Below, piece by piece: positions 40,383 to 56,315 of a stretch of DNA of 64,000 bases. The notes beneath the pieces were generated by a model. It did not search any database. It saw only the letters and a program-made list of their open reading frames with translations, and was not told the DNA's origin. The stretch's first letter is position 1; each line of letters opens with the position of its first letter. The position numbers and the translations under genes are program-made. The stretch lies in the NCBI RefSeq assembly GCF_000403785.1, contig NZ_APHJ01000022.1:62001-126000 (forward strand), in the 5' to 3' direction. This DNA comes from Gillisia sp. CAL575. GTDB taxonomy: Bacteria; Bacteroidota; Bacteroidia; Flavobacteriales; Flavobacteriaceae.

Positions 40383-40832
40383 TTAAAGAGATTTGCTAAA
40401 ACAAACACTACTCTTTATTCCTAGATATTGGCCGTAATTTTTGGAGATCTCATAGCCAGTCTTAATATATAGGCCAATCGCGTCTTTAAAACTTCCCCCT
40501 GTCTCTAAGATACATGTATTATATCCTAACTCTTTAGACCATTCCTCTAATTCTTTGAGCACCCTAGAAGCAATCATCTTACCACGAGCTTCTGGCAAGA
40601 CGAACATTCGTTTAATTTCTGCTTTTTCTCTATCAAACATTTTTATTGCTCCACAACCTACAGCATCTCCATTATCATAAGCGACTATAATATGATTAAT
40701 GGTATCTATTTTATTGAATTGATCAAAAAAGGCGTGTTCATCTCCATCCCTAATTGTTAATTCCATATCTAAAATTTTATTTAAATAATTAAAATCTGGA
40801 TCTTTTGAAGTGGTTCTTTTTAACTCGATCAT
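40383..40832 (-). CDS. GNAT-family N-acetyltransferase
   Basis: 149 aa. The acetyl-CoA motif A is IKRMFVLPEARGKMIASRVL near 75-95, with ILETGGSFKDAIGLYIKTGY as motif B near 113. The substrate is unknown. It is 38 bp downstream of the second acetyltransferase in the same direction. Confidence 0.85.
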   Translation of the reverse strand: MIELKRTTSKDPDFNYLNKILDMELTIRDGDEHAFFDQFNKIDTINHIIVAYDNGDAVGCGAIKMFDREKAEIKRMFVLPEARGKMIASRVLKELEEWSKELGYNTCILETGGSFKDAIGLYIKTGYEISKNYGQYLGIKSSVCFSKSL

Positions 40833-40870
40833 GTTTTCATTTTAAAGTAATAATGCTAACTATATTTATT

Positions 40871-41416
40871 TCATTTTGTAAGAGCATCATCTAAATAATT
40901 GAATTCCCATACATAAAGCAATAAGGCATCCTTAGTATTAGGTAACCTAATTTCTTTTTCAAACCTAAGATCAAGTTTTTCCAGTAATTTTTGAGAACCT
41001 ATATTGTTTCTATTAGTTATAGCGCTTAACTTATCCAGTTTAAAATCCTTTAAAGCCACCTCTTTAATTTTAAAAGCACTTTCAAAGGCATAACCTAAGC
41101 CTTCATATTGTGGTAAGAATGCAAATCCAATATCGATACCCTCTACTCCTTCCCTATCATACAATCCGCAACACCCAATTTTCAAATCATCAGATTTTCT
41201 AAAGACCGTGAAATTACCATATCCATTCTTTTTAATCACTGGTAATATTGTATTTTGGATATATGCTTCAGCATCTTCAATATTTCGAATATTTCTATCT
41301 CCAATAAATTGGCTCCATTTGGGTGTATTCAGCAATTCAAAAATAAAATCAGCATCTTCCAAAGTGGTTTTCTTAATTATTAACCGAGCGGTTTCGTATA
41401 TTAAAGATTGATTCAT
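40871..41416 (-). CDS. GNAT-family N-acetyltransferase, RimJ/RimL-like
   Basis: 181 aa. It begins with TARLIIKKTTLEDADFIFEL, and IDIGFAFLPQYEGLGYAFES near 100 and LSAITNRNNIGSQKLLEKL near 135 are typical of RimJ/RimL-type enzymes that acetylate amino groups of proteins, peptides or small amines. The pair of different acetyltransferases in one minus-strand run fits an accessory region. Confidence 0.85.
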   Translation of the reverse strand: MNQSLIYETARLIIKKTTLEDADFIFELLNTPKWSQFIGDRNIRNIEDAEAYIQNTILPVIKKNGYGNFTVFRKSDDLKIGCCGLYDREGVEGIDIGFAFLPQYEGLGYAFESAFKIKEVALKDFKLDKLSAITNRNNIGSQKLLEKLDLRFEKEIRLPNTKDALLLYVWEFNYLDDALTK

Positions 41417-41469
41417 TTAAAAAAGGATATCAGCTAAAGCTCTAAAGTTTAAAGTTACTTCTTATTTTC

Positions 41470-41598
41470 CTAAGGTCTTTCTATTCCAATTAGTAGGTTC
41501 TGCGGCATTAGTGTAAGTGCTTTGTAAAATGATAGTATCATATTAGAAGGATCTTCAAATTGTTGCACAACCTTATAAGGTAAGCTCAATTTGTGCAA
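41470..41598 (-). pseudogene. Possible gene remnant, 42-codon open frame
   Basis: A frame without ATG (first usable codon TTG at 41598) ends with FEDPSNMILSFYKALTLMPQ and IGIERP. The peptide is protein-like, with a helical middle, but I cannot name its family. It may be the tail of a degraded gene, or chance coding in AT-rich DNA. Confidence 0.3.
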
Positions 41599-41612
41599 TA
41601 GTAAATCCCCAA

Positions 41613-42074
41613 TTAATTAATCTCAAATTCTAACTGCTTATTATTTTCAAGTGCTCTTCTATCCATTTCTATTCCAATAACAAGACCTATTGCCATGCCA
41701 ATTGGAAGTCCTAAGGCGAAAGCGGATATATTATCTAAAATGGAGGTAAAAACTACACCTAAAGAAACTCCAAAAACTAACATTCCAAGAGCTGACCAAA
41801 GATTGCGATAATAATTTTTAGGAACAATCTCTAGATCGTTGAGAAGTGAATTGAGGACTTTCTTTTTGACCGATTTCACGTAGAAGTATAACTTTAAATG
41901 ATGATCTAAAACATCATTTAAGCGTTCTATTTCCTGATTCATTTCCACGACCACTTCGGGAGGTAAATCTCTGTGTTGTAATTCCTGAACAAGCTGTTCA
42001 AGCAATGCATATTCCTTACTTATCGCTTTTTTCTTATCCGAAAAAAAACGGGTCTTTAAGCCTTCTAGTTCCAT
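41613..42074 (-). CDS. Hypothetical membrane protein with N-terminal coiled coil
   Basis: 153 aa. Residues 1-70 are charged heptads (KAISKEYALLEQLVQELQHR and later LNDVLDHHLKLYFYVK), probably coiled coil. Two Gly-rich helices follow (LWSALGMLVFGVSLGVVF near 88 and FALGLPIGMAIGLVIGIE near 118), and the end is polar. It lies in the accessory minus-strand run; function unknown. Confidence 0.6.
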   Translation of the reverse strand: MELEGLKTRFFSDKKKAISKEYALLEQLVQELQHRDLPPEVVVEMNQEIERLNDVLDHHLKLYFYVKSVKKKVLNSLLNDLEIVPKNYYRNLWSALGMLVFGVSLGVVFTSILDNISAFALGLPIGMAIGLVIGIEMDRRALENNKQLEFEIN

Positions 42075-42433
42075 TCTCTAAAATTTTATCACTGTACTTG
42101 CAAATAAATTGTAGGGAACTCATTATTGCTTTAATTATAAGACGCCATATTAATTTTTTGTTACTGATTAATTTTTACTTTTTTCTAAAAAAAATATATT
42201 CTATTCTAAATTACTTTAGGATTTTAAAAGTACAGAAAAAACAATTACAAGTTATGCTTTAAGGCATAGACATCATTTGTGATAATATCTATAAATTCTT
42301 TTTTGTAAAATCATTTAATCCAAATCCCTAATGGAGTCCGATAGGAAGTATCAAAGCGACCATTAACAAAAAAGAGATGCTTTAAATCTCGTTTTACAAT
42401 TTTCATGATCTTAAAGATTTTGGTTTCTTAAGT
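42075..42433. other. Intergenic region, 359 bp, with TCTCTAAA and GTAGGG motifs and a short open frame
   Basis: Holds TCTCTAAA with TTATCACT at 42075-42093 and GTAGGG at 42111-42116, both also seen in other gaps of the accessory part. A 31-codon frame at 42311-42406 on the minus strand (start MKIVKRDLKHLFFVNGRF, end IK) is possible but unsupported. Confidence 0.4.
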
Positions 42434-43102
42434 TTATAATTTAAATTCTAAACCTAAATTAAAAACTGAAGATTTTAGATTATTATCTCTTTCATTTAAA
42501 CCTCGAAAATATCTAGCTGATAGTGTCAAATCTTCAGATATTTTATACCCTGTTCCTAGATTTAATCCATATTCAAACTTATCATAATCAAAATTATTTG
42601 GGTCATTGGGATCTTCTCTTTCTATAGGAATATCTGGGCTAAGATAATTTCCTTCAGCTTTATATTTTCGATCTACTAAATATCCTAATTGTGGTCCTGC
42701 TTCTACAAAGTACTTCTCTGTAAAGTAAAACCTTATTTCAAGAGGAAGTATTATTGTAAGATCACTCACCTTAGATTTAAAATCGAAAAGAACTGGACTA
42801 CTACCGAACCCACCCTGAGTTTCAACATCTTCAATTACTAATCGAGTTCCTTGCATTGCTAGGAGTAATTCGGGTTGAAGCTCAAATTTTTCAGAGATTC
42901 TAATATTTAAAAAACCACCCGCATAATACCCTATCTTTCTCTTGTAATCACCCAATTCATTTCCGTAGAACAGAGGGTTGGGAGTAAATTGAGCAAAATT
43001 CGCTCCTGCTTTTAACCCAAATTCAAGTGTATTAGATTGAGCTGATACATTAAAGGAACTAAGGATTATACTAAGTATTAATACAGTTGTTAATTTTTTC
43101 AT
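42434..43102 (-). CDS. Outer-membrane beta-barrel protein (porin/PorT-like)
   Basis: 222 aa with a signal peptide (MKKLTTVLILSIILSSFNVSA). The mature part alternates polar and aromatic residues in eight or so strands (LEFGLKAGANFAQFTPN, YYAGGFLNIRISEKFELQPE, FGLEFKL-type ending), typical of Bacteroidota outer-membrane beta-barrel PF13568-type proteins. The ligand or channel role is unknown. Confidence 0.78.
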   Translation of the reverse strand: MKKLTTVLILSIILSSFNVSAQSNTLEFGLKAGANFAQFTPNPLFYGNELGDYKRKIGYYAGGFLNIRISEKFELQPELLLAMQGTRLVIEDVETQGGFGSSPVLFDFKSKVSDLTIILPLEIRFYFTEKYFVEAGPQLGYLVDRKYKAEGNYLSPDIPIEREDPNDPNNFDYDKFEYGLNLGTGYKISEDLTLSARYFRGLNERDNNLKSSVFNLGLEFKL

Positions 43103-43149
43103 TTTATAGATTCTGATTTCTTAATAAATTATTTTGTGTACCGTCCTAC

Positions 43150-43646
43150 TTATTCGCTTTCAAAGATCAAAGTTCTTCCATAATCTCCCTTTTCTCCAGC
43201 AGCAAATAACATTCTATCTTCATCTAGCCCCATGAGTGATAATGTGAAAACCATATTTGAAACAACATCACCAGATATTTTTCTTCTCACCATATCTATG
43301 AATACTAAACCAGATTCTTCATATAAACGGTATTCTGAAGCAGCTATTTCTGAATCTCCATAAAAACAATTTTTCATACCGGCAGTTACTTCAACGATCC
43401 CCTCGGGTTTAAAAATATAGGTTTCATCTATGAAACAATCATTATTATTATGCAAATATTCTGGATATCTGCTATAATACCCAACTAAATTCCAGGTTTA
43501 AGAGCTGTTATTATGTATTAAGTTTAGATCTTCACTCTTATAGGTATATATAAAGTTGTATCGTCATCCATACTACAACCCATAAATACAAGCATCAATA
43601 AAGTGATGATCAGCAGAGATTTTAATTCATTTAGGGACTTGATCAT
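43150..43646 (-). pseudogene. Lipocalin-like lipoprotein broken by a frameshift and a stop
   Basis: From ATG at 43646 the frame gives a lipoprotein signal (LLIITLLMLVFMGC, lipobox FMGC) and then DDDTTLY before it ends in a TAA after VKI. Moving one base in the TATATATA run near 43546 enters the frame that reads YKSEDLNLIHNNSS, hits a TAA at 43500-43498, and continues TWNLVGYYSRYPEYLHNNND to the normal end at 43150. TWNLVGYYS is the start of a lipocalin-like strand, and the remaining ~100 residues look intact. So a secreted lipoprotein of about 160 aa carries two lesions. The family name is tentative. Confidence 0.7.
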
Positions 43647-43714
43647 TTTTAGTTTTTTATATTCAAAGTTAATTTCCATGTTTGTTTCTCATTGAGAGTA
43701 GACTTTAACTCATC

Positions 43715-44122
43715 TTATGCTTTTGCCACTTTTTTTGTGTTCTTTGTGATGTAAAAGCTTATTAAGAAGTAAGAGAAAATCAAAAGCAATAACTCATAGC
43801 TATTTTTCATCTCAAACGAATCCTGTGCATAAAATATCGCAGATAAGGAATCGAAAATCACAACAACAACTCCAAAGCCTAAACACTCAATTAATTTTTG
43901 AATTCTAATTTTTTGAATATGTGAAGATTCATTTTTCTCTTTAGAGAATACGAATGCAATTATTGATAAAAGAATAAGATCTTTCAGAACCCAATTCAGT
44001 CTGATTTCCTCTAGATTTATGAAATCTGATAATGGAGCTGAAAAAACAAGACCAAGAATTAAAAAAAGCAAAATTGGCAACACGATTTTTCTTATGGAAT
44101 TGGAGAGTAGTTTTTCGTTCAT
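43715..44122 (-). CDS. Hypothetical membrane protein, four helices
   Basis: 135 aa. Hydrophobic segments lie near 13-33, 46-60, 80-95 and 108-127, with short polar loops (KEKNESSHIQKIRIQK). No family is recognised. It is one of a series of small membrane proteins on the minus strand between 43.7 and 45.9 kb, perhaps co-inherited. Confidence 0.6.
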   Translation of the reverse strand: MNEKLLSNSIRKIVLPILLFLILGLVFSAPLSDFINLEEIRLNWVLKDLILLSIIAFVFSKEKNESSHIQKIRIQKLIECLGFGVVVVIFDSLSAIFYAQDSFEMKNSYELLLLIFSYFLISFYITKNTKKVAKA

Positions 44123-44168
44123 TTTCTTTTTTAAATATGAGTTTCTTTCAGGCTTCTAAATTTACCTA

Positions 44169-44345
44169 TTAATGACTTAAATTATAAAAGGCTTCTCCAA
44201 TCGCTTTGCCAAATAAATATATGAACCCAATGCTAAAAATGGCTGCATATATTCTTATAAATAATTTTCTAGCTCTTATAGACTTAGTGGTTTTTATACT
44301 GGTATAAGCTGCCAGTCCAAAAACGATGCAGATAAAATAATTCAT
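44169..44345 (-). CDS. Small membrane protein, 58 aa
   Basis: Starts MNYFICIVFGLAAYTS, then a basic stretch KTTKSIRARKLFIR, then a second helix AAIFSIGFIYLFGKAIG. Two membrane spans with a positive cytoplasmic loop fit a genuine small membrane protein. Unknown function. Confidence 0.55.
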   Translation of the reverse strand: MNYFICIVFGLAAYTSIKTTKSIRARKLFIRIYAAIFSIGFIYLFGKAIGEAFYNLSH

Positions 44346-44702
44346 AATGGATTGTAAGTGAATATTCGCTGTATTGGTAGGGATTTACTCAGAATGTTAC
44401 AACAAATTACCCTTTTTATCCTTTCTAATAAGCATTAATTGCAGTGATTTTATATAAGGATCGAAGTGAATATCAATATCGAATAGTTTAATACTTACAG
44501 AATCTTAAATAGACTTCGAACATATTCTCCATTTTAAAATCCAACCTAAGATAAGCTTACAATATCTTTACGCTTATAACTACCTATTTCTTTCTACAAG
44601 ATCTTTTCCTTTAAAGTAGCTAGTAACTATTGCATGGGAATTCTAAAAATAAAAAGATCGCGAAATAGAAGGTTTCAAATCAAAACTAATATTTTTGAGA
44701 AA
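44346..44702. other. Intergenic region, 357 bp
   Basis: AT-rich. It holds a GTAGGG at 44377-44382, the hexamer seen upstream of other minus-strand genes here, followed by TTTACTCAG. No other gene or repeat is apparent. Confidence 0.4.
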
Positions 44703-45146
44703 TCAAGCAGGTAAGATACCTAAGGCATCTATAATAATTACAAATAGAAATAGGAGCACAAAGGTTAATACCAATCCAAGCAACGAGATCCCGATGATCC
44801 TTCCCCATCCAAACTCTTCACCTCCAGATTCCACATGAGCTAACATACTTGGACCTTGGTAATATTTAGAATAAAGATAGGCTGCCATTGTATAGGTAAC
44901 AGGAATCACAATTGCTGGAAAATTTTCAAATTTTGGAATAAGAAGACCCAAAGAAAATATTAAAATAGTTAATGGAATGGTATAGGTCCATGTTGTCTTT
45001 GCATTTTCAGGATCGTTAAAGGCTTTATAATTCTCTGCTATAAAATACCCAGCTATTAAGGGTCCACCCACAAAAGAACCTACCCAAATGGCTCTTTCCT
45101 TATAAATTTTATCTTTTGGTGTAGAAGTTTCTCCTAGCTTATCCAT
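44703..45146 (-). CDS. Hypothetical membrane protein, 147 aa
   Basis: A soluble lead (MDKLGETSTPKDKIYKERA) precedes three or four hydrophobic segments (near 20-38, 48-65, 72-90, 115-140). WVGSFVGGPLIAGYFIAENY near 22 is a Gly-rich helix. Family not recognised; a stand-alone accessory gene. Confidence 0.6.
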   Translation of the reverse strand: MDKLGETSTPKDKIYKERAIWVGSFVGGPLIAGYFIAENYKAFNDPENAKTTWTYTIPLTILIFSLGLLIPKFENFPAIVIPVTYTMAAYLYSKYYQGPSMLAHVESGGEEFGWGRIIGISLLGLVLTFVLLFLFVIIIDALGILPA

Positions 45147-45258
45147 GTATTTATTTGAAAGAAATTAAAGTTTACAAGATTATTTCCAATTAGGCGAAAC
45201 CAGTAAACTTAAAGGCGGCAAAAATAAGAATAAATTGTAGAAATCTATGCTTATATCT

Positions 45259-45414
45259 TCAGCTAAACTTTTTAGATATCCCAATAATTATAAGACTTCC
45301 GCCTGAGCCCATAATAGCTCCTATCCAAAATCCATATGTGCTTTTATCTACCAGATAATGAGCAGCAATTCCTGCAAATAAAATTATAATTCCGAGTACT
45401 ATTAATTTATTCAT
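45259..45414 (-). CDS. Small membrane protein, 51 aa
   Basis: MNKLIVLGIIILFAGIAAHY forms one helix and FWIGAIMGSGGSLIIIGISK a second, separated by a polar DKSTYG hinge. The start, length and hydrophobicity suggest a real two-span protein, close to the 58-aa one in style but not homologous by eye. Confidence 0.55.
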   Translation of the reverse strand: MNKLIVLGIIILFAGIAAHYLVDKSTYGFWIGAIMGSGGSLIIIGISKKFS

Positions 45415-45449
45415 TTTGTGCATATAATTAAAAAATCAAAAAACTACTT

Positions 45450-45857
45450 TCAACTCTGTGTAGACTTAAATTGTATCTTATAAAATACATACAGAAAAAA
45501 GAGAAAGAAGATAAAGTCATTTATTCCATAAACGGAATAGAATATACCTGCAAACAGATCTTTTTCATAAACATCTATCACATTATTATTAATCATCCAC
45601 AATAACCAAGCGACCACGTAAATAAACTTTTCAATCACAACGGTAGCAACTACCCATTTCGCACTTCTATAATTGAATGCCAAGGCAATGTATAAAAAAC
45701 CCCAAACTATAATCATTAATAACCCGAAATTAGACATTACCACAGGGTCTTGTTCAGGAATAACTTCATTTGTGAAAAACCTTGATAATATTAAAACTGC
45801 TACAATATTCATGAGCCCCGCAGCTATAAATCCTTTACGTAATGTTTTTTCAGTCAT
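45450..45857 (-). CDS. Hypothetical four-helix membrane protein
   Basis: 135 aa. Segments lie near 8-25, 45-60, 70-88 and 106-126. A short N-terminal MTEKTLRKG is cytosolic. The order of helices and the WGFLYIALAFNYRSAKW section recall DoxX-like or DUF-type small membrane proteins, but no family is certain. Confidence 0.6.
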   Translation of the reverse strand: MTEKTLRKGFIAAGLMNIVAVLILSRFFTNEVIPEQDPVVMSNFGLLMIIVWGFLYIALAFNYRSAKWVVATVVIEKFIYVVAWLLWMINNNVIDVYEKDLFAGIFYSVYGINDFIFFLFFLYVFYKIQFKSTQS

Positions 45858-46336
45858 ATTTTATTGATCTAAATTCAAGTTTGCTCATTCAAAATCTTAA
45901 ATTCTATTAATATCGAAAGATAACTCAAAATTTGGCTTATACTTTAATACTCTATAATGATTATAATTTGACCATTCGATTAGTTGAAATTAGAAAATTT
46001 CTCATCATTAATTTTTAAAACATTGAATCTGGCGGCTAACCTAATATGATTTTAAGCTTCAATTGTGTCTGCTATAGAGAGTAAAATTAGATAAGTTATA
46101 TCTACCAAAAACTCTCCAAGCCTTATGTTAACTTTATCTTAAAAATTAAACTTGAAATTTTGTGATTTCTTTCAGAATATTAGTAGTTTTGGCAAAGGGA
46201 CAATCTGATTAGATTGCTGAAAACCAAGCTTTAAAATAAGTAAATATTTGGAATAAATAATTTACTATCCGTTATAGAATAAAATAAACGTAAGAGAACT
46301 CCCTAAGAATTTTAACATTTCTTTTAGATATTATCC
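45858..46336. other. Intergenic region of 479 bp upstream of the FG-GAP/haloperoxidase pair
   Basis: Apart from the promoter at 46160-46191, no gene, repeat or RNA was recognised. It divides the divergent minus-strand membrane-protein genes from the plus-strand pair. Confidence 0.5.
46160..46191 (+). promoter_or_regulatory. Predicted promoter of the FG-GAP/haloperoxidase pair
   Basis: TTG (46160-46162), 21 bp, then TAGTTTTG (46184-46191), both consensus. It would leave an untranslated leader of about 140 nt before the ATG at 46337, long for this organism, so regulation in the leader is possible. Confidence 0.55.
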
Positions 46337-49300
46337 ATGAGACTAATACTAATCATAGTAGCGATCTGCACTCTTAATATTTCTTGTTCCGATGATAAAG
46401 CTCCTATGGAGAAAATTACAGAGGAAAGTGACTATCTTTTAGAATCCATTGCTCCCGAATTATCAGGGTTAAATTTCAGTAATAATATTACTGAAGACGC
46501 GGAACATTCTATTATAAATTATATCTACTATTACAACGGTGCAGGGGTGGCAGTTGGAGATGTAAATAACGATGGTCTGCCCGACCTTTATTTCGTGGGA
46601 AATTCTATCCCCAATAAACTATACCTGAATTTGGGTGATTTTAAGTTTGAGGATATCACAGAGAAGGCCGAGGTTGCCGGGAAAGCTAGCTGGCAAACCG
46701 GGGTTACTATGGTGGATATTAACCAAGATGGCTGGATGGATATTTATGTGAGTGCAGTATCCAACCTTTTGGATTTTACCGGTCATAATGAATTATATAT
46801 TAATAACCAGGATGGGACCTTTACTGAGTCTTCTGCAGATTATGGCTTAGATATAGCGTCTTATGCAACCCAGGCTTATTTTTTTGACTATGACCATGAT
46901 GGTGACCTAGATGTTTATATTGTCAATCATAGTGTACACACAACTTATTCTTACGGCCCTGCCGAAACCCGAAATGACAGAAAGCCACTGGTTGGCGATT
47001 TACTACTTAGGAATAATAATGGAAAATTTGAGGATGTAAGCGAGATCGCCAATATATATGGGGGTGCAAACAACTATGGTCTCAGCGCTAGTCTAGCCGA
47101 TTTTAATAAAGACGGGTGGACAGATATTTATGTTTGTAATGATTTTCATGAGAACGATTACTATTATATAAATAATCAGGATGGCACATTCACAGAAAAG
47201 GTAGACGAAGCATTTTCTATTATAAGCAATTTCTCCATGGGCAGTGATGCAGCCGATATAAATGCTGATGGACTGCCGGATTTGATAACTTTAGATATGC
47301 TTCCGGAAAAGGAGCGTATCCTAAAGGAGACTGAAGGTGATGATGCACTCTATTTCATTCAGCAACGTCTTAGAAAATTGGGATATAAAGACCAATTTGC
47401 CCGTAATATGCTCCAAATAAATCACAACGATGGTAAGTTATTCACTGAAAAAGCATTGATGGATGGCGTGGCAGCTACCGATTGGAGTTGGGCCGCATTG
47501 TTTGCCGATTTCAACAATGACACACACCAAGATCTTTTTATAACCAATGGGATCTTGCGTCGTCCTAATAGCCTAGACTTTAAGAAATATGTGGCGAGTG
47601 CTTTCAAAGGCAGAAACCAGAATGATGGTTTAGCCTGGCTATTCAAATCTATTGACAGTATGCCAAGCGGCAAGGTTTCAAATAAGATCTTTGAAGGAAA
47701 TTCAGTAACTTTTAATAACCGTTCAGGGAAATGGTTAAATGATGAGCCAAGCCTCTCAAATGGTGCTGCCTATGCAGACTTGAATTTGGACGGTAATTTA
47801 GATCTGGTATTAAATAATCTTAACGGAACTGCCTCCATTTATAAGAACATCAATCCATCTCCTTCCAATTATATTTCATTTAAACTTAATTATCTCAAAC
47901 CTAATCTCAATGGAATTGGGACAACTATAAATTTATACGCTGGTCAAAAATTACAGTCTAAGAGTTTATACAAATCCCGCGGGTTTTTATCGGGTATGAC
48001 AGATCAATTACATTTTGGATTGGGTAAAAATAATGCTATAGATTCTGTGGTAGTGATATGGCCAAATCTTAAAAAACAGGTTCTTACCAACCTGGAATCC
48101 AACCGCCTGCAAGAGGTTAATTATGTTCAGGATTTAGAAGATAATAGTTTTCGGGCAGCAAAACCAGGCAAGGCAGCCTTTCAAAAAACAGATCAAATGG
48201 AATTCCAGCATCAGGAAGACCTATACAATGACTTCCTAAACGAAAAGCTTATTCCTTATAAAGTTTCCACTATGGGTCCTGCAGTAGCTGTTGGAGATGT
48301 GACGGGGAATGGATTTGATGACCTATATATAGGAAATGCAGCAGGGAAACCTGCAAAGTTCTATTTGAATAACGGTAATGAATTGGTGCTAACTCCCATA
48401 AAAGTTTTTTCAAATGATAGTATTTATGAGGATAACACAGCGGTTTTCTTTGATGCAGATGGGGATGGAGACCAAGATCTCTATGTTGGTAGCGGTATAA
48501 GTAAACGAGGTGATGCAAATTATTTAGACAGATTATATCTTTTTGAACAGGGAACATTTAAAAGAACCCCAAGTTCTATTCCTGATAATAAATTAGTTAC
48601 GACAGTTGTAAAGGCTAATGATTTTGATCTCGATGGAGATATAGATCTTTTTGTTGGTAATCTCACAGAATCTAAGCATTTTGGATCCTCCGTAAATTCC
48701 TATATATTGGTAAATGATGGTAAGGCCAATTTCTCTAAACTTAAATCATTTAAACTTAATTCCAAAGTGAACGATGCTATATGGAAGGATGTTAATGGAG
48801 ATGGCAGAAGTGACCTTATAGTCGCAACAGAATGGGATGGGCCCAAGTTGTTTTTTAACACAGTGTCCGGCTTTAAACCAAAAGACTTACCATCCAAGCT
48901 TAATGGACTATGGCAAAGCGTATTTGTTTCAGATATAGACCAGGATGGCGATGAGGATATTCTACTTGGTAACTGGGGTTTAAATTCCAAGTTCAAGCCT
49001 ACCCCAATGACACCCCTTAAAATGTATTATTTGGATTTTGACAAAAACGGTAATACCGAAACAGTGATTGCTTATCATAAAAATGGTTCTTATTATCCGT
49101 TACATTCCAGAGACGAACTTGCTAGCCAACTTACTATCATTAAAAAGCGCTATGTGAGGAATAAAGATTATGCTCTTAAAACCATGGAAGATATTTTCAC
49201 ACCTTACACCTTAAATGAAGCACAACTTAATGAAGTACATAGTTTTGCATCTGGATATCTCGAAAACAATAATGGAGAATTTTCCAAATTTGTGGAATTT

Positions 49301-49597
49301 CCGTACCAGCTCCAACTAGCCCCTATCAATTCATTTCAGAAGATTAATGTAAATAATAAAGAACATATCATTGTAGGCGGAAATTCTTATCGAAGTAATA
49401 ATTACCAGGGCACCTATTCAGCCTTGAAAGGATTTATGTTCAGCAGTCTAGATTCCATTGTTCCGGTAAGTAATTTTGGAATAGATTCCTTTAAGGAGGA
49501 GGTAAAGACAATTGAAACTATTAGCATTAGAAACCACAAGATTCTGCTAATTATAAGTAATGATGGCCCAATAAAAACATACAGATATGAGAATTAG
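46337..49597 (+). CDS. Large FG-GAP/VCBS and ASPIC/UnbV lipoprotein (CRTAC1-like)
   Basis: 1086 aa. A lipoprotein signal (MRLILIIVAICTLNISC, Cys near 17) anchors it in the outer membrane or surface. The body is a run of calcium-binding DxDxDGxxD loops: DVNNDGLPDLYFVG, DINQDGWMDIY, DYDHDGDLDVY, DFNKDGWTDIY, DINADGLPDL, DFNNDTHQDL, DLNLDGNLDL. An ASPIC/UnbV domain is centred near 540-600 (FLSGMTDQLHFGLGK, DSVVVIWPNLKKQVL). A second set of repeats follows (DADGDGDQDLYVG, DFDLDGDIDLF, DVNGDGRSDL, DIDQDGDEDIL). The fold is one or more beta-propellers, likely surface-exposed. Its last 11 bases overlap the haloperoxidase start, so the two are made together. Confidence 0.87.
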   Translation: MRLILIIVAICTLNISCSDDKAPMEKITEESDYLLESIAPELSGLNFSNNITEDAEHSIINYIYYYNGAGVAVGDVNNDGLPDLYFVGNSIPNKLYLNLGDFKFEDITEKAEVAGKASWQTGVTMVDINQDGWMDIYVSAVSNLLDFTGHNELYINNQDGTFTESSADYGLDIASYATQAYFFDYDHDGDLDVYIVNHSVHTTYSYGPAETRNDRKPLVGDLLLRNNNGKFEDVSEIANIYGGANNYGLSASLADFNKDGWTDIYVCNDFHENDYYYINNQDGTFTEKVDEAFSIISNFSMGSDAADINADGLPDLITLDMLPEKERILKETEGDDALYFIQQRLRKLGYKDQFARNMLQINHNDGKLFTEKALMDGVAATDWSWAALFADFNNDTHQDLFITNGILRRPNSLDFKKYVASAFKGRNQNDGLAWLFKSIDSMPSGKVSNKIFEGNSVTFNNRSGKWLNDEPSLSNGAAYADLNLDGNLDLVLNNLNGTASIYKNINPSPSNYISFKLNYLKPNLNGIGTTINLYAGQKLQSKSLYKSRGFLSGMTDQLHFGLGKNNAIDSVVVIWPNLKKQVLTNLESNRLQEVNYVQDLEDNSFRAAKPGKAAFQKTDQMEFQHQEDLYNDFLNEKLIPYKVSTMGPAVAVGDVTGNGFDDLYIGNAAGKPAKFYLNNGNELVLTPIKVFSNDSIYEDNTAVFFDADGDGDQDLYVGSGISKRGDANYLDRLYLFEQGTFKRTPSSIPDNKLVTTVVKANDFDLDGDIDLFVGNLTESKHFGSSVNSYILVNDGKANFSKLKSFKLNSKVNDAIWKDVNGDGRSDLIVATEWDGPKLFFNTVSGFKPKDLPSKLNGLWQSVFVSDIDQDGDEDILLGNWGLNSKFKPTPMTPLKMYYLDFDKNGNTETVIAYHKNGSYYPLHSRDELASQLTIIKKRYVRNKDYALKTMEDIFTPYTLNEAQLNEVHSFASGYLENNNGEFSKFVEFPYQLQLAPINSFQKINVNNKEHIIVGGNSYRSNNYQGTYSALKGFMFSSLDSIVPVSNFGIDSFKEEVKTIETISIRNHKILLIISNDGPIKTYRYEN

Positions 49598-50966
49598 AGC
49601 CTTTTTTATTCCTATTGCTTTAGGTATAATAACACTTTTACATTATAGCTGTGAACCAAAGGAAGATATTGAAGTAGCGGCGAGAGATTATCACCTTTTG
49701 ATAGATAAAGTAACAGCAATAATGGTGAACGATATATTTTCTCCTCCCCAAGCGAGCAGAGTTTACGTTTATCCAAATATTGCAGCTTATGAAGCTTTAA
49801 ATGCACATTCAGGAAGCTATAAGTCTCTTATCCCGCAACTGAATGGTTTCGATAAGAACACTAAAATTAAGGTTCCAGACGCCGATACTAATCTTAAGCT
49901 TGCAGCTTTACTGGCCTATATGCAAGTTGCTGAAAAACTGGTTTTTTCTGAAGACGTAATACGTACCTATCGTGATAGTTTAACCAACCAATGGGCAAGT
50001 CAAAATCCTGAAAGTCTCAAAAAAGCAGAAGCATATGCTAATGAAGTCTCTGCAAATGTAATTGCTTGGATGGAGAATGATTTATACAGGGAAACTAGAA
50101 GCATGCCCGATTATGATTTTTTTAATCAAGATCCGGGAAGATGGCAACCCACCCCTCCCTCTTATATGAAAGGCATAGAGCCTCATTGGGCAAAGATAAG
50201 ACCAATGGTCATGGATTCGGCTTCACAATTCAAACCTTTACCACCACCAAGCTTCTCACTGGATAAAGCAAGTAAATTTTACCGCGAGTTAAATGAAGTA
50301 TACCAAATAAGTGAAGCTATTAGGGCAGACGGAAATGACTCCGAGGAGATTGGAATTGCAAGGTTTTGGGATTGCAATCCTTACGTTTCCATTACGAAAG
50401 GCCATTTTATGTTCGCCGAGAAAAAAATAACTCCTGGTGCACACTGGATGGGAATTTGTAAAATAGCCTCATTAAAGTCGGGAGCAGATTTTGACCTAAC
50501 TGTATTGGCATACACCAAGACTTCTATAGCACTCTTTGATGCATTTATAAGTTGTTGGGATGAAAAATATCGGTCTAACCTTATTAGACCTGAAACCCTT
50601 ATCGCAGAGTATATAGATCCAACTTGGCAACCAATCTTGCAAACGCCACCGTTCCCGGAATATTCCAGTGGGCACTCCGTTATTTCCAATGCAGCTTCGA
50701 AAGTTCTCACTTCTATATATGGTGACAACTTCGGATTCGTAGATGATACTGAAGTCCCTTACAAATTACCGGAGAGAACATTCTCGTCCTTTTATGATGC
50801 GGCTACAGAAGCAGCTCTAAGCCGATTATACGGTGGGATTCACTATAGGAGTGCTATTGAAGAAGGGGCTACCCAGGGAGAAAATGTTGGGGATTATGTA
50901 AACAATAAACTTCAGTTAAATAAAGAGTCATCTAAGACAAAAGATATGATAACTTCTAATCACTAA
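49587..50966 (+). CDS. Vanadium-dependent haloperoxidase-like (PAP2-superfamily) lipoprotein
   Basis: 459 aa. A lipoprotein signal (MRIRAFFIPIALGIITLLHY, then SCEP) leads to a vanadate-binding module: K327 and R334 in KYRSNLIRP (the K-x6-RP motif), YSSGH with H363, and SRLYGGIH with R413 and H419. These match the vanadium haloperoxidase / acid-phosphatase core, with SSGH rather than PSGH. The enzymes oxidise halides with H2O2 or act as phosphatases; the choice is not readable from sequence. It is translated with the large FG-GAP lipoprotein (11-bp overlap) and is exported. Marine flavobacteria carry iodo- and bromoperoxidases of this kind. Confidence 0.85.
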   Translation: MRIRAFFIPIALGIITLLHYSCEPKEDIEVAARDYHLLIDKVTAIMVNDIFSPPQASRVYVYPNIAAYEALNAHSGSYKSLIPQLNGFDKNTKIKVPDADTNLKLAALLAYMQVAEKLVFSEDVIRTYRDSLTNQWASQNPESLKKAEAYANEVSANVIAWMENDLYRETRSMPDYDFFNQDPGRWQPTPPSYMKGIEPHWAKIRPMVMDSASQFKPLPPPSFSLDKASKFYRELNEVYQISEAIRADGNDSEEIGIARFWDCNPYVSITKGHFMFAEKKITPGAHWMGICKIASLKSGADFDLTVLAYTKTSIALFDAFISCWDEKYRSNLIRPETLIAEYIDPTWQPILQTPPFPEYSSGHSVISNAASKVLTSIYGDNFGFVDDTEVPYKLPERTFSSFYDAATEAALSRLYGGIHYRSAIEEGATQGENVGDYVNNKLQLNKESSKTKDMITSNH

Positions 50967-51126
50967 CGTGGAAGCAAACAAAATATAGCATAACTATTTT
51001 AATAATTGTTCTCGTTTATCTCTTCTGCAATAGATTGGGTTATTAATTTTTAAAAATAGCGACAGATGAACCTTTGATCTGCCGCTAGTCAATTAAATAT
51101 TTTAATAATCTTAATTGTGTTTTAAT

Positions 51127-51747
51127 CTAAAGTTTAAAAAGAATACCTAAATTCAAGCTACTCCTACTATTTCTAACAGCATCACCTGGATTATTCTCAA
51201 ATACGTCGGTAAAACCAGATTGTCCATCATACTCAATATAAAGTTTCATCCTATCGCTAATTTCAAATTTATATCCAATACCTAGGGCCAAACCAAAATC
51301 TGTGCTTTTAAAGTTATCCTTTACATCTAGTCCTAATTCAGAAGCTTCAGCATATAATAAAAGCCCAGCATAAGGACCGAAATTTAGATACCAATTTCTA
51401 TTGGATCCAAAATGCCAGTTTGCCATAATAGGAATTGTAAGGTAGCAAAGTTCAAAATCGGTTATGACTAAGAACTCAATTTCATCTGCAAGAAATCCAT
51501 CAGACCAACCTTTATTATCGTAAATCAACTTAGTTTTTATTCCCCATCTATCTGAAAAATAGTATTCCCCAGAAACGCCTCCGTTGATAGAAGTAAGGTA
51601 ATCTGCATTACTTTGCCCATCTGTTGTAGACACATTAGATAAACTTACACCTACTCCTCCACCTAATTCAATATCCCCATTATCTTGAGAATATCCATTG
51701 AAAATTCCAAAAATTGAAATTGATGCAATCCATAATAACTTTTTCAT
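51127..51747 (-). CDS. Outer-membrane beta-barrel protein
   Basis: 206 aa with signal peptide MKKLLWIASISIFGIFNGYS. The mature part begins DIELGGGVGVSLSNVSTTDG, passes through strands with YYFSDRWGIKTKLIYDN and LNFGPYAGLLLYAEASELG, and ends LGILFKL, the terminal-Leu ending typical of Bacteroidota barrels. The function is unknown. Confidence 0.78.
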   Translation of the reverse strand: MKKLLWIASISIFGIFNGYSQDNGDIELGGGVGVSLSNVSTTDGQSNADYLTSINGGVSGEYYFSDRWGIKTKLIYDNKGWSDGFLADEIEFLVITDFELCYLTIPIMANWHFGSNRNWYLNFGPYAGLLLYAEASELGLDVKDNFKSTDFGLALGIGYKFEISDRMKLYIEYDGQSGFTDVFENNPGDAVRNSRSSLNLGILFKL

Positions 51748-51845
51748 ACTCTTACTTTTTTTGTTTTATTGTTTGATTATTAATATTCATCTTCTTCGTT
51801 TAATTATGAATTAATTATCTAAAAAATTATCAGTTTGCTAAATGA

Positions 51846-52280
51846 TTACTTTCTAATATAATCTGATTTCGAATTTATTTTTATCGACATTATATATTGA
51901 GTTATTCTACTAATGCCAAAAACCAAACCAGCAATAATACCTGAGAAGATCAAACCAGTAATAAATAAAATATTTCTTCCAATGTCAGAAGTTACCTTTC
52001 GCATTGCGGCTGATTGTTCGGTTGTAATTTCCTTTCCGCTAAAAAATCCGTCTCTGTTTAAATCGAAAGTTTGTAATGTGATTTTATTTGAAATATCCAA
52101 ATAAGTTGCACCACTTAGAATAAAAAGATAAAAAGCAAAGAACAACGTTAGACATATCCAAAACAATTTTAATTTTCCAGTTTTAAACAAACTTTCTCTC
52201 TTAAATATTATTACTACTAACATTAGGACAGAAAATATTATAGGAATAATCAAATAATAAGGTAAACTTATTTCTTTCAT
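51846..52280 (-). CDS. Membrane protein with an EF-hand calcium loop
   Basis: 144 aa. Two N-terminal helices (near 8-23 and 37-55) are followed by an extracytoplasmic loop near residues 72-90 containing DLNRDGFFSGKE, which fits the canonical EF-hand loop (D1, N3, D5, S9, E12). A third helix (NILFITGLIFSGIIAGLVFG) closes it. Binding of calcium is thus predicted from motif only. Family unknown. Confidence 0.65.
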   Translation of the reverse strand: MKEISLPYYLIIPIIFSVLMLVVIIFKRESLFKTGKLKLFWICLTLFFAFYLFILSGATYLDISNKITLQTFDLNRDGFFSGKEITTEQSAAMRKVTSDIGRNILFITGLIFSGIIAGLVFGISRITQYIMSIKINSKSDYIRK

Positions 52281-52399
52281 TGATGTGATTAATTAGGCCT
52301 AAACAAACATAACGGTATTGGCTAATGTATAACAATTAAAGTCAATTAAATTTCATAGAATTTAAAAATTTTAATTCACTTTTTTAACTAGTTGTATCT

Positions 52400-52735
52400 C
52401 TAAAAAATTACATTCAGACTTTTCAACATCATATTCAGATAAATTATTGATTCTGGGTCTATCATTGCAGTATCTATTCCGAGTTCGGTATTATCAGAAA
52501 CCAGGATATATTCACCAGTGACCTTTTTAATAAATTTTATTTTTTCAAATTCCATTTTCTTAGAAAATGGAGAATTAAAATATATCACCTTCTCTTCAAC
52601 TGTTAGATATTGTTTTAAGTATTGATACATATATGTGACAATAAATAAAATAGGTAAAACTAAACCTACGCTCTGTGACCATATATGAAAATGATTAAAA
52701 AACATAATTACAATTAGTAATATGAGCAAGATCAT
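52400..52735 (-). CDS. Hypothetical PH-like membrane protein, possibly frame-disrupted at its start
   Basis: 111 aa: two helices near residues 2-35, then a soluble strand-rich part (EEKVIYFNSPFSKKMEFEKI) reminiscent of bacterial PH domains. A reading frame of 12 codons starting at 52770 (MYKIRISGLISL) begins 6 bp after the hydrolase stop and ends in TGA overlapping this ATG (ATGA). So either it is a coupled leader, or a single base is missing and the true protein begins MYKIRISGLIS, followed by the helices. Confidence 0.55.
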   Translation of the reverse strand: MILLILLIVIMFFNHFHIWSQSVGLVLPILFIVTYMYQYLKQYLTVEEKVIYFNSPFSKKMEFEKIKFIKKVTGEYILVSDNTELGIDTAMIDPESIIYLNMMLKSLNVIF

Positions 52736-52775
52736 AAACTTATCAGTCCAGAGATTCTAATTTTATACATTTCAC

Positions 52776-53687
52776 TTATTTTTCTAAGATCCATTGTATT
52801 AAGTTTTCTTTGTCAACTATAGACCAACTGTGAGGATTACGCTCAGCATTCGCTCTATAACCCTTATTCTTAGTTGGAATATATTCCACCTTTTTAAAAT
52901 TATTCGAATTCAAAAATTCTGATAATCTTTTTATATGAAAAGCATTCATTTGTTCGTAATCCACACCCATATTTTCTTTCCACCAAACCTTATCTGGTTC
53001 GGTATAAAAACGAAGTTTAGTGTTCTTTAAAGCCTTTAAATTCTGGAAATTCTTAGTTTCATAGGTAAATGTAGAATACTTTTCATAAGGCGCAATTTCC
53101 AAGTCTGGATCTCCAAGTTGATCATTAAAATAATTAAATATAAATGTACTTTCCCCAACTGCTGACTCAGAAAAGTTTTTTTCAATATTCTGTTCTACAA
53201 CATCATATAAAGCCGCAAGATCAATAGGAGAATCTACGACAAAGATCCCTGAAGGATTGATGTTATAAGCCGGATTTTCAGTAAGAAAATTACCAAGTAA
53301 AAGTGCCATATTTCCACCACTAGATAATCCTCCAATATATATATTTTCAGATGGTAAATTATTTGCAGTAATCATTTCGTTAATACTATTTGCCAGTTGT
53401 ACTTTTTCTACATCTTCCAACCATATTTTTCTATTAAAATTTGAATACGCCACTGCTATATTCCTATCTAAAGCCATCCTAGTTATAGGATACTCAGTTT
53501 CTATGTCAACAGCAGTTTCTGGAAAGCCTCCAAAAAGAATTAGTAGAGCTTCTGTTGTATCTGGCACATATAAGTTATAAGATTCAGATTCAATAAGTTT
53601 TAATTGCTCCTCTACTTCTTGAGCAAAGTTTAAAGAGGTTGAAAATAGAATGCTTAAAAAGCTAAGAATCTTTATTATCTTTTTCAT
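52776..53687 (-). CDS. Secreted alpha/beta-hydrolase-like protein
   Basis: 303 aa with signal peptide MKKIIKILSFLSILFSTSL. The GGLSSGGNMALLLG elbow near residue 120 contains the likely nucleophilic Ser, ALLILFGGFPETAVD near 48 is a nucleophile-preceding strand, and NPHSWSIVDKENLIQWIL at the end may hold the His. No substrate or subfamily is clear. A Bacteroidota -7 box lies about 50 bp upstream. Confidence 0.72.
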   Translation of the reverse strand: MKKIIKILSFLSILFSTSLNFAQEVEEQLKLIESESYNLYVPDTTEALLILFGGFPETAVDIETEYPITRMALDRNIAVAYSNFNRKIWLEDVEKVQLANSINEMITANNLPSENIYIGGLSSGGNMALLLGNFLTENPAYNINPSGIFVVDSPIDLAALYDVVEQNIEKNFSESAVGESTFIFNYFNDQLGDPDLEIAPYEKYSTFTYETKNFQNLKALKNTKLRFYTEPDKVWWKENMGVDYEQMNAFHIKRLSEFLNSNNFKKVEYIPTKNKGYRANAERNPHSWSIVDKENLIQWILEK

Positions 53688-53735
53688 ATAAATATCGTTT
53701 ACAAGGCTCTTATATTAATTAAAGTTAATCAAATG

Positions 53736-53743
53736 CAAATTTA
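53736..53743 (-). promoter_or_regulatory. Possible -7 box of the secreted hydrolase gene
   Basis: On the minus strand TAAATTTG (53743-53736) matches TAnnTTTG, followed by CATTTG; 48 bp separate it from the start at 53687. No matching TTG lies at the right distance. Confidence 0.4.
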
Positions 53744-53970
53744 AATAACTACAGTAATTACTGAATAACTCGTTTTTTAAAAGAAAACTAAAATATCACT
53801 TTTTTTATTATAACTGATTTTTTTATGATAACGGTCATGGTTAATAATTAATGGTTTGTATTTGTGCTTACAAAAATTGAAACATTTTCTACTTTAAGAA
53901 TTTTATTTTTAGTGGAGCACTATTACATAGAATTCCAACTCTTTATTTTAATATTGAACTGTTTATTATT

Positions 53971-54633
53971 CTAAAACATTGACATATCAAGTTCTTGAAA
54001 GTCTTTAATTTCTGATAGTTTTATTGGTCTATCAAGATTTATCGTACTCCAAGATTCTTTAAATACTTCAACTTCACCCTCTAGATTTTCGTTGGTGTTC
54101 TCAGATATTAATTTTTTCTGAGTTAGAAAATTAATACTTGTCTTGTAATTTACTACAGGTCCGCTATTTGCGCTTGACTCGTATCCAATTAAATTAAAGT
54201 CATATTTATCATATTCAAAAATATATTTCCAATATCCGTATCTGCCGTGACTATAATGAATCTCTAACTTTTGATTACTAATATTAAAGGAAAGTTGTGG
54301 CGGGAAATAAACTCCTCCATTCTCATTTTCAGAAGAAAAACAATCTAAATTTTCAACAATTACTTCATAAACAAATTCCTTGTTTAAAAGAATAATTATC
54401 CCCCTCCTATTACGATCAACATCATCATTATATTTATTTGTTACAATATTTACGTTTCTCGTATCCTTTACTACCAAAACGCAGTCTTCTAAACCATCAT
54501 TATTTAAATCTCCATAATATTCACTAAATAAAACATATCCCTCAGGGATGTTTTGCGATATTTCTTTATTCTGAGCTTTACAAAAGCTGCTACTTAAAAT
54601 AATTAAGGAAACGAATAACAAATTTAATTTCAT
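53971..54633 (-). CDS. Secreted protein with a calcium-type DLNNDG motif
   Basis: The open frame extends to 54699, but the ATG at 54633 begins the signal peptide MKLNLLFVSLIILSSSFCKAQ, so I prefer it; 220 aa. YGDLNNDGLEDCVLVV near residue 40 resembles an FG-GAP calcium loop. The remaining sequence shows no known domain. It is a single accessory gene in the minus-strand run. Confidence 0.62.
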   Translation of the reverse strand: MKLNLLFVSLIILSSSFCKAQNKEISQNIPEGYVLFSEYYGDLNNDGLEDCVLVVKDTRNVNIVTNKYNDDVDRNRRGIIILLNKEFVYEVIVENLDCFSSENENGGVYFPPQLSFNISNQKLEIHYSHGRYGYWKYIFEYDKYDFNLIGYESSANSGPVVNYKTSINFLTQKKLISENTNENLEGEVEVFKESWSTINLDRPIKLSEIKDFQELDMSMF

Positions 54634-54795
54634 GTATATGTCATTTTTAAATTTCCGATAATGGAAGTTTCTGCAATAATTTAGATAATTAATAGTCAAA
54701 TTAGTAAGAGTACCCTTATAACTATGCGATGTGCCAATTTATATTTTTTAATTAATCTCAAAATCCTTAAAACTTTCTATTACAAATTGCGAAAA

Positions 54796-55320
54796 TTATT
54801 TATAATGTTCGTTATCTGGTGCGTGGATATGATATGAGTATTCAGATTTATTTTTATTTTTTATTGTTACTTCTAATTGATATGCATCAAGAACTCGGTT
54901 TTTATTCTTTTCTATTTCTTTTAAAATAGCTTCTTTAGAGCTTATAATTAAATCGCTCAATTTAATAATTGAATCCTTAGCTGAATAAATAAAACACTCT
55001 TTTGAGAATATTTTTGCCTTATCAAATAGTTCCTCAATTTCCTTGTGTTCAGCAGTTGTCCGATCTTTTTTTAGAAATAATTCTTCAATTCTTTTTTTAT
55101 CAGTTTTATTAAAGTTGTTTTCTCCAGTATATTTTAAAAAATAGATTTTAGTATTTTGACTATTCCTGTGAACATCTACATTAAATTCAAGCGCAGGCAT
55201 ATTACCACTTACCTTGACTTTCAACTGATAATCGGTTTGCGAAAAACAATTTATATGAATGAGTATTATGAAAAACGTAATAATCTTGCGCACACATGTT
55301 TCTTTTAATGAATATTCCAA
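54796..55320 (-). CDS. Secreted hypothetical protein
   Basis: Up to 174 aa. A GTG at 55293 gives a clean start to the signal peptide (RKIITFFIILIHINCFSQ), whereas the upstream ATG adds nine polar residues; the GTG is preferred. The mature part has a polar beta-strand start (DYQLKVKVSGNMPALEFNVD) and helical, highly charged middle (EELFLKKDRTTAEHKEIEEL). The single late His/Glu-rich end (YSYHIHAPDNEHYK) is unusual. No family is recognised. Confidence 0.55.
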   Translation of the reverse strand: MEYSLKETCVRKIITFFIILIHINCFSQTDYQLKVKVSGNMPALEFNVDVHRNSQNTKIYFLKYTGENNFNKTDKKRIEELFLKKDRTTAEHKEIEELFDKAKIFSKECFIYSAKDSIIKLSDLIISSKEAILKEIEKNKNRVLDAYQLEVTIKNKNKSEYSYHIHAPDNEHYK

Positions 55321-55441
55321 GTAATAGTTACCTCTACAACCGGCGACATTTGGGGATGAAAATTTATTCTCATTATGCTTTGTTTCTGAATTTCTTAAAC
55401 ATCATTATTCTATCGAATTCCTACTTATTTTGATATTTTGA

Positions 55442-56152
55442 TTAAGATTTACTCAGAAGATCTAAAATATCAATTTCATCTGTTCGCTGAAATTCCCGAA
55501 TCAACTTACCTTTCTTATCCAAAATTAAAGTCGTTGGAAAATATCTTATATTTAATTTCTGATGGAAATTATAACCATCTGGGATTAGTTTAAAATTTGA
55601 ATCGATAAGATCGAATCCCTTATGTATTTGCTGCTTAGTGGCGTCGAATATTATTATCGCTGCTATCTCAGATTTTTTGTTGCTCAGATTAATTTTCGCA
55701 TCTAAATCTGCAATTTCATGTTTTTTAAACCTAAAAGTATCAGCTTCCATTTCCATTCTCAGAATCACCATTTTACCTTTTAAATCCTTAATCTTTATAG
55801 TTTCTCCATCTATAGTTTTAAAGACTAATTTCGAAAAATATTCACCTTTTTCTAGCGTCTCAAAGTCCTTATTATTCGTGGAGACAGAATTTTCTTTATC
55901 TGGATTATATAAATATTTTACAATATTTCCTTTGTTATCATATATTCTCTCTAGCTGAAGGTTGGGATTGTTTGTGACTAAAACCCCAAATTCCTTCTCA
56001 GATATTTTTTTTCCGGTATTCTTATTGAACAATTTATCTATACTAAATTCAGTATCTATTCTCTTTACTTCTCTTTGCACTTTGATTTCATTCTGTGCGA
56101 AAATTTGAAAACTGAAGAAAAAAAATACTATTATAATTTTTATATGTCTCAT
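55442..56152 (-). CDS. Secreted thioredoxin-fold protein without active-site cysteines
   Basis: The open frame starts at 56176, but the ATG at 56152 begins the signal MRHIKIIIVFFFFSFQIFAQ. 236 aa with this start. The C-terminal half looks like a TlpA/redoxin fold: IKDLKGKMVILRMEMEADTF sits where a WCxxC motif normally follows the hydrophobic strand, and LNIRYFPTTLILDKKGKL provides the cis-Pro strand. No Cys is present in the protein at all. It is probably a redox-dead structural or binding relative. Confidence 0.62.
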   Translation of the reverse strand: MRHIKIIIVFFFFSFQIFAQNEIKVQREVKRIDTEFSIDKLFNKNTGKKISEKEFGVLVTNNPNLQLERIYDNKGNIVKYLYNPDKENSVSTNNKDFETLEKGEYFSKLVFKTIDGETIKIKDLKGKMVILRMEMEADTFRFKKHEIADLDAKINLSNKKSEIAAIIIFDATKQQIHKGFDLIDSNFKLIPDGYNFHQKLNIRYFPTTLILDKKGKLIREFQRTDEIDILDLLSKS

Positions 56153-56165
56153 ATATTTTTTTTTA

Positions 56166-56291
56166 GCCAATAGCATTGGTCATCATACGTAGGGCGAAAT
56201 GGGTTTATGTCTTGAGGATTATTTAGGTTATTTTTAATGATTTTATGCGATCTCTAAATTATCACTATTCACTAGAAAACCCACTATTGGC
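56166..56291. repeat. Long two-block inverted repeat in the gap at 56.2 kb
   Basis: GCCAATAG (56166-56173) and TGGGTTT (56200-56206) together pair with one contiguous AAACCCACTATTGGC (56277-56291). The 126-bp span contains GTAGGG and the TCTCTAAA block. It could form a bulged hairpin. Confidence 0.45.
56236..56277. repeat. 42-bp repeated intergenic block, copy A
   Basis: Aligned by eye with 62279-62320: 33 of 42 positions match, including GATCTCTAAA and CACT with ACTAGAA. A shorter version with TCTCTAAAATAA lies at 60141-60152, and another TCTCTAAA with TTATCACT at 42075. Confidence 0.55.
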
Positions 56292-56315
56292 ATTTAATGA
56301 TATTATTAATTTTAG

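Follow-up and report, generated by a model that had tools for sequence, protein, structure and literature searches.

On contig NZ_APHJ01000022.1 of the flavobacterium Gillisia sp. CAL575, the gene for a vanadium-dependent haloperoxidase of the Zobellia iodoperoxidase family follows directly on, and overlaps, the gene for a large FG-GAP/UnbV β-propeller lipoprotein, and the two genes form a unit that recurs in other Bacteroidota. Both lie in the 64,000-nucleotide stretch that we analyzed (positions 62,001 to 126,000 of the contig; hereafter the window, from whose first letter positions are counted). The propeller protein and its homologs are called FG below. We consider the chances evenly balanced that FG is a Ca2+-binding, double-propeller surface partner of the iodoperoxidase-type enzyme and that the two stem from a SusCD-type system; this purpose in the cell is what we infer. 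An initial annotation of the window had described the two open reading frames (ORFs), and their coordinates, strand, lengths, and 11-base-pair (bp) overlap were all borne out (Table 1; genes were called by longest-ORF heuristics).

An iodoperoxidase-family enzyme with a CRTAC1-like neighbor

The 459-amino-acid (aa) protein matches the chain of the vanadium-dependent haloperoxidase 4cit with a phmmer E value of 3.2e-171. Its structure model (mean predicted local distance difference test score, pLDDT, 82.5; weak at residues 183-195 and 267-276) was placed by Foldseek closest to 4usz and 4cit, described as the “first bacterial vanadium dependant iodoperoxidase” (query TM 0.81, 55-56% identity). 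One retrieved gene, L163, has a translation equal to the 4cit chain across all 450 residues, and the window enzyme shares 249 of 442 residues (56%) with it. The window enzyme is a member of the Zobellia-type vanadium-dependent iodoperoxidase family, and the remark of the initial annotation that it knew of no described function for the pair does not hold for the enzyme, whose family includes this crystallized protein.

The active site is intact. Window residues K327, R334, S361, G362, H363, R413, and H419 align with K324, R331, S358, G359, H360, R410, and H416 of the iodoperoxidase, seven positions of 4CIT which we take to be the vanadate ligands. They agree with the motifs K-x6-RP, SSGH, and SRxYGGIH that had been noticed in the window sequence, all of which are present. 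Relatives were collected as the best 80 of 581 confirmed loci, ranked by similarity to the window enzyme and taken with 10-kb flanks; all seven residues are identical in 80 of 80 relatives and in the window.

Iodide is the best-supported substrate on family membership, and it is likely the substrate of the window enzyme. A 2014 study reportedly found such Zobellia enzymes to be strictly iodide-specific. A 2026 report handles the Zobellia enzyme as an iodoperoxidase and describes the residues that set halide specificity as largely unknown (PMC13198595). One Zobellia iodoperoxidase, vIPO3, was upregulated on the brown alga A. nodosum in another study (PMC9296495).

The main rival of a surface iodoperoxidase is a phosphatase in a sugar locus, by which the enzyme would carry out phosphatase or other PAP2 oxyanion chemistry in vivo on a SusCD-handled phosphorylated sugar or the like, and oxidize iodide only in vitro. 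We regard this as rather unlikely. Of the Pfam families, only PAP2 (3.8e-08) passes its cut-off with the enzyme, VCPO_2nd falling below its own, and in the fold comparison the haloperoxidases are followed by bacterial acid phosphatases. Against this stand the closest structure, which is an iodoperoxidase, and the retention of all seven vanadate residues in the 80 relatives, although PAP2-fold phosphatases have much of the vanadate site in common. No NCBIfam family scored above cut-off for either protein of the pair.

FG carries the Pfam families FG-GAP_3 (1.8e-61) and UnbV_ASPIC (2.8e-17), and residues 31-598 of its model superpose on murine cartilage acidic protein 1 (CRTAC1; 9etn) with Z 37.2 and a root mean square deviation (rmsd) of 2.6 over 460 residues at 22% identity, in keeping with the FG-GAP/ASPIC-UnbV assignment first made for it. 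Like CRTAC1, it consists of an FG-GAP propeller followed by a UnbV_ASPIC domain; unlike CRTAC1, it has a second propeller (residues 608-1086), a lipoprotein signal, and an adjacent enzyme gene. Structure matches to the second propeller are propellers of varied function. No reading was drawn from the Foldseek matches to whole FG beyond CRTAC1, which were many unrelated propeller or repeat proteins with poor rmsd, or from a match to the sugar-lyase propeller 4a7k at 9% identity. The protein contains 11 motifs of the form D-x-[DN]-x-[DN]-[GDT]-x-x-D, compared with a mean of 0.07 and a maximum of 1 in 500 residue shuffles; of the calcium claim made for it earlier, the Dx[DN]xDG-type motifs are thus there, while binding itself is a prediction.

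Both proteins bear lipobox-like signals (LNISC-SDDKAP in FG, LHYSC-EPKEDI in the enzyme), as had been claimed. Acidic residues after the lipidated cysteine, of the S-D-D type, are a surface-export signal in Bacteroidota; the two window signals fit this rule, and the pattern is uneven among relatives.

Linkage of the two genes across genomes

An FG homolog lies directly upstream of the enzyme gene, on the same strand, in 73 of the 80 loci, and one more has an FG fragment at a contig edge. In these 73 loci, the enzyme start lies −35 to +84 bp from the FG stop (overlapping in 22, 0-20 bp away in 41, and 21-84 bp away in 10), with start codons guessed from the signal peptide. FG lies 7 bp ahead of the gene whose product is the crystallized chain, and it is directly upstream of the enzyme in 9 of 9 Zobellia genomes, a count for which FG rows were taken from one comparison and enzyme places from another.

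We also drew 60 genomes of the family evenly, not choosing them by the enzyme gene and including that of the window; adjacency was judged visually from the coordinates, and scoring covered only 12 FG candidates in some of the genomes. Twenty-one of the 60 carry the enzyme, in 27 copies, and for 19 of these copies a same-strand FG is no more than 340 bp away, upstream in 17 and in reversed order in 2, against a random expectation of 0.012. The FG family occurs in all 21 enzyme-bearing genomes; a further 11 contain FG but no enzyme, and 28 lack both (Fisher p 1.6e-8, for genomes that are related and not independent). Across the phylum, the enzyme gave 76 matches in 45 of 198 genomes; in 40 regions hand-picked from the 76, FG was directly upstream in 17, within three genes in 3, and not that close in 20. 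The 8 weakest enzyme relatives among these regions (<200 bits) have no adjacent FG; they include L155, which is located at the start of a contig. The coupled pair seen initially in one genome is therefore a conserved unit in Bacteroidota (73/80, 19/27, and 17/40 by the three samples), with linkage far beyond chance, and FG and the enzyme probably work together.

Several further features of these loci were recorded. Directly after the enzyme, 57 of 80 loci have a GyrI-like (effector-binding domain) gene (Pfam on two examples), e.g., L014:11333-12223, whose product has an N-terminal hydrophobic stretch; the window pair has no counterpart. An FG-enzyme operon on a contig titled Candidatus Rokubacteria (L080) groups with Flavobacteriaceae and is possibly mis-binned. 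One of the operon FG genes is split into two frames in L033:3447-6740 and L075:96-3379, which may reflect a damaged copy or an error of sequencing. At G048:C54:21849-25031 (L175), an FG that scores as the enzyme-adjacent type stands without an enzyme and is followed by an opposite-strand 438-aa ORF; enzyme loss is possible.

SusCD operons and the descent of the pair

Counted to three, consecutive FG genes directly upstream of the enzyme number three in 35 of the 80 loci, two in 23, one in 16, and none in 6. Most three-FG loci are cut off before SusD by the 10-kb flank, and some loci end at contig ends. In a 20-genome sample of three-FG loci (without L039), coordinate and strand were used to assign each SusD to a locus range; SusD precedes the first FG by at most 240 bp in 16 genomes and by 2.3-2.4 kb in 3, which are all Robertkochia, and it lies elsewhere in the remaining one (L086). 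The window’s own genome has, at a second place, the series SusC, SusD, FG, FG, FG, enzyme, and GyrI-like gene (SusC/SusD at L087 8162-12967). In Tenacibaculum L025, which belongs to the window lineage, SusC-SusD stands directly before the FG-enzyme pair. The Zobellia operon with the 4cit-identical enzyme comprises three FG, enzyme, GyrI-like, and SdiA-like genes, with a divergent SSS-like gene in place of SusCD. FG genes of ~1100 aa follow SusC-SusD directly in 11 of 20 loci away from the enzyme (L183-L202, hand-picked from the FG list of the 60 genomes), so FG-GAP/UnbV proteins of this size look like general SusCD companions.

Near the operon copy in the window’s genome (G000:C25:82000-120000; L087, L088), genes for a GMC oxidoreductase and a gluconate-2-dehydrogenase-subunit-3-like protein lie just upstream, and 3-keto-disaccharide hydrolase and GFO/IDH/MocA genes are nearby. 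We rejected the GMC oxidoreductase, which is just upstream of SusC here, as a general supplier of H2O2; such a gene was near the operon in 1 of 20 operon genomes (L034).

In a tree of 90 enzymes, the window copy falls in a 13-row clade (100/99) made up of one-FG loci, which lies inside a Flavobacteriaceae group with Zobellia and the operon copy of its own genome. A tree of 67 FG proteins (full-length FG of one-FG loci, of every third multi-FG locus, and of the own genome; FastTree local support) shows four clean groups, one for each of the three operon positions and one for the one-FG lineage. The window FG lineage (13 rows) groups as sister to the operon position next to the enzyme (36 rows; support 100), and the other two positions stand apart. 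Judging from the matching 13-row clades in both trees, the enzyme-adjacent FG and the enzyme were copied together. The pair would have come from the operon rather than the operon from the pair, because the pair clade lies among operon clades in the enzyme tree, in which some inner forks are weak. It is highly improbable that the window copy is a decaying remnant of the operon: it lacks SusC, SusD, and two of the FG genes that the genome’s other copy has, but both frames are intact, the active site is complete, and the one-FG form is a supported clade, window included, in both trees.

Around the window pair itself (Table 1), neither SusC nor SusD was found, nor any other plus-strand ORF of at least 150 aa, in a search of positions 40000-58000. 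From 43000 to 46337, ORFs are mostly on the minus strand and plus-strand frames are at most 64 aa (searched down to 40 aa in 43000-46500). The flanking minus-strand genes that were scanned, at 42434-43102 upstream and 51127-51747 downstream, are outer-membrane β-barrel genes of the OMP_b-brl_2 type, not of the SusC/SusD type. The pair looks like its own transcription unit, since the flanking ORFs are mostly on the minus strand and the upstream plus-strand frames are short. A promoter-like TTTG-N21-TAnnTTTG lies at 46159-46191, ~145 bp before the FG start; there are 3 such matches in the window against 4.05 expected, i.e., no excess.

Table 1. Features of the FG-enzyme gene pair, with positions in the window
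Feature	Position	Strand	Basis
FG-GAP/UnbV (CRTAC1-like) lipoprotein, 1086 aa	46337..49597	+	ORF; Pfam; model mean pLDDT 90.5, pTM 0.89
FG signal peptide and lipobox-like LNIS-C17, then SDDKAP	46337..46387	+	sequence
FG residues 31-600: FG-GAP propeller and UnbV_ASPIC (Pfam 526-590)	46427..48136	+	VIA-align to 9etn; Pfam
FG residues 608-1086: second β-propeller	48158..49594	+	propeller structure matches; model strands
Overlap of both reading frames, 11 bp	49587..49597	+	ORFs; spacing in 73 relatives
Vanadium-dependent iodoperoxidase-family lipoprotein, 459 aa	49587..50966	+	phmmer to 4cit; Foldseek; identity to L163
Enzyme signal peptide and lipobox-like LHYS-C22, then EPKEDI	49587..49652	+	sequence; C22 invariant in 53-row alignment
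Vanadate motif 1: K327 ... R334-P	50565..50588	+	alignment
Vanadate motif 2: S361-G362-H363	50667..50675	+	alignment
Vanadate motif 3: R413 ... H419	50823..50843	+	alignment

Possible role in iodide or sugar chemistry

In the mechanism that we propose, the FG and enzyme genes would be co-transcribed and would encode a two-lipoprotein system at the cell surface. H2O2 would bind the vanadate held by K327, R334, S361-G362-H363, R413, and H419, and the peroxo-vanadate form would oxidize iodide to HOI. The double propeller, presumably stabilized by calcium, would hold the enzyme or its substrate at the outer membrane, perhaps by physical contact. The ancestral set would be the SusC-SusD-FG-FG-FG-enzyme operon, a parent form that would feed the SusCD porin and in which FG proteins would occupy the place of the surface-binding lipoproteins of Sus-type loci. 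The window pair may represent a lineage that kept only the enzyme-adjacent FG and the enzyme.

Iodine uptake by Arenibacter sp. C-21 offers a possible physiological parallel. It needs glucose, O2, and Ca2+ and depends on H2O2; a membrane haloperoxidase was proposed, and the strain has at least 5 genes homologous to 4USZ, none of which the paper assigned to the uptake (PMC5064120). FG-FG-enzyme sets are present in two further genomes of Arenibacter (L029, L051), through which the likeness was drawn. The calcium need would fit an FG partner, a link that is suggestive only.

Of the two kinds of chemistry suggested initially, halide or glycan, the enzyme family favors iodide, and the neighbors of some operons point to sugars, so that a phosphatase or sugar-linked role is possible. 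A trehalase-family gene is in the flank of 16 of the 80 loci (L019, L022, L023, L028, L030, L033, L035, L036, L038, L040, L064, L067, L068, L073, L078, and L082), and GH97, GH100-like, MFS, and PfkB genes are found in several (Pfam on examples). Other loci have xylA/xylB/SSS-like neighbors, named by eye from sequence; in L049, L182, and L176, a cluster of xylulokinase-like, xylose-isomerase-like, and SSS-like genes sits between FG and enzyme, a split of ~5 kb. A sodium/iodide-symporter role for the SSS-like gene was considered and rejected; a sugar role is simpler because such genes sit with the xylose-isomerase-like and xylulokinase-like genes. For a phosphatase in vivo, these neighbors count in favor, as do the 3-keto-disaccharide hydrolase and GMC oxidoreductase genes near the own-genome operon, and two facts count against: the neighboring sugar genes vary by clade, and no sugar genes are directly beside the window pair.

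A number of observations weigh against FG as the surface partner of an iodoperoxidase from a SusCD-type system. Six of the 80 loci have no adjacent FG (L037, L049, L055, L070, L079, and L085; in L049, FG is ~5 kb off), as is true of 8 of the 27 copies in the 60-genome draw and of 20 of the 40 phylum-level regions, which have none within three genes upstream; the enzyme can thus act without FG or with a distant one. The 8 copies include G012 and G019, where the enzyme is ~5 kb from FG (with xylose-type genes between in G012), G038:C163, which has a similar layout with the FG end at a contig edge, and five copies listed without FG (G021, G025, and G036, also checked in the regions, G027:C2, and G046:C12). 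In that draw, most genomes with the enzyme have more FG genes than enzyme genes. At least two acidic residues follow the lipidated cysteine in only 23 of 70 FG and 27 of 80 enzyme sequences. The Zobellia operon is without adjacent SusCD in two Zobellia genomes, the sugar genes near some operons have no obvious fit to iodide, and the calcium need of C-21 may have another cause. Finally, the divergence of the enzyme and that of its adjacent FG, given the other two FG, show a partial correlation of 0.017 (permutation p 0.43; from 32 of the 35 three-FG loci, those with short frames being left out), which gives no sign of pair-specific co-evolution. The single physical complex envisaged in the initial annotation found no backing in this test, co-divergence being nil.

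The same result, the 6 loci without adjacent FG, and the FG-GAP/UnbV genes that follow SusC-SusD in enzyme-free loci would suit a linkage without contact, in which FG serves a SusCD uptake step and the enzyme acts alone from a locus that they have in common. This explanation, although unlikely in our judgment, deserves to be taken seriously. It accounts poorly for the enzyme-adjacent FG being a separate clade and the sole FG that accompanies the enzyme in the window lineage; of the 12 other loci of that lineage, only L025 was seen to have SusC-SusD immediately before the pair. The 25 positions, for example in 245-293, 334-358, 409-410, 858-865, and 973-988, that separate the enzyme-adjacent FG from the other two FG groups also speak against it, though such positions arise by descent alone as well.

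A more ambitious version of the partnership would make the enzyme-adjacent FG clade and the iodoperoxidase a Ca2+-dependent holoenzyme, with FG lipoproteins as general SusCD companions, in a surface system of marine Bacteroidota that couples a vanadate peroxidase to TonB-dependent uptake. We regard it as speculative and doubtful.

With respect to known systems, the enzyme adds a member to an established family, and the FG fold has a precedent in CRTAC1. The window enzyme resembles the iodoperoxidase of Zobellia galactanivorans (4CIT, 4USZ) in sequence (56% identity over 442 residues), fold, the seven vanadate residues, a lipobox-like cysteine, and an FG directly upstream; it differs in belonging to another clade, with one FG as opposed to three, and in that its activity is predicted from the family. 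The related operons resemble Sus-type loci in their order of SusC, SusD, lipoproteins, and then an enzyme lipoprotein, whereas the enzyme is a haloperoxidase homolog and not a glycoside hydrolase, and the window pair is without SusC/SusD. What appears new is the conserved pairing of FG-GAP protein and haloperoxidase and its SusCD setting: among the open-access literature matches listed, outside which the 2014 Zobellia paper falls, we found no account of either, nor, among those matches, of the genes encoded alongside the Zobellia iodoperoxidase.

The FG-GAP/SusCD setting makes the biological role of the iodoperoxidase testable by deletion in an existing genetic system, that of Zobellia galactanivorans, in which a gene has been knocked out (PMC8490876), has a bearing on iodine handling by marine bacteria, and provides bacterial CRTAC1-like proteins with a candidate enzyme partner. 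Were the Ca2+-dependent holoenzyme and its coupling to SusCD to prove true, they would account for the dependence of flavobacterial iodine uptake on calcium and supply a function for the bacterial CRTAC1-like proteins.

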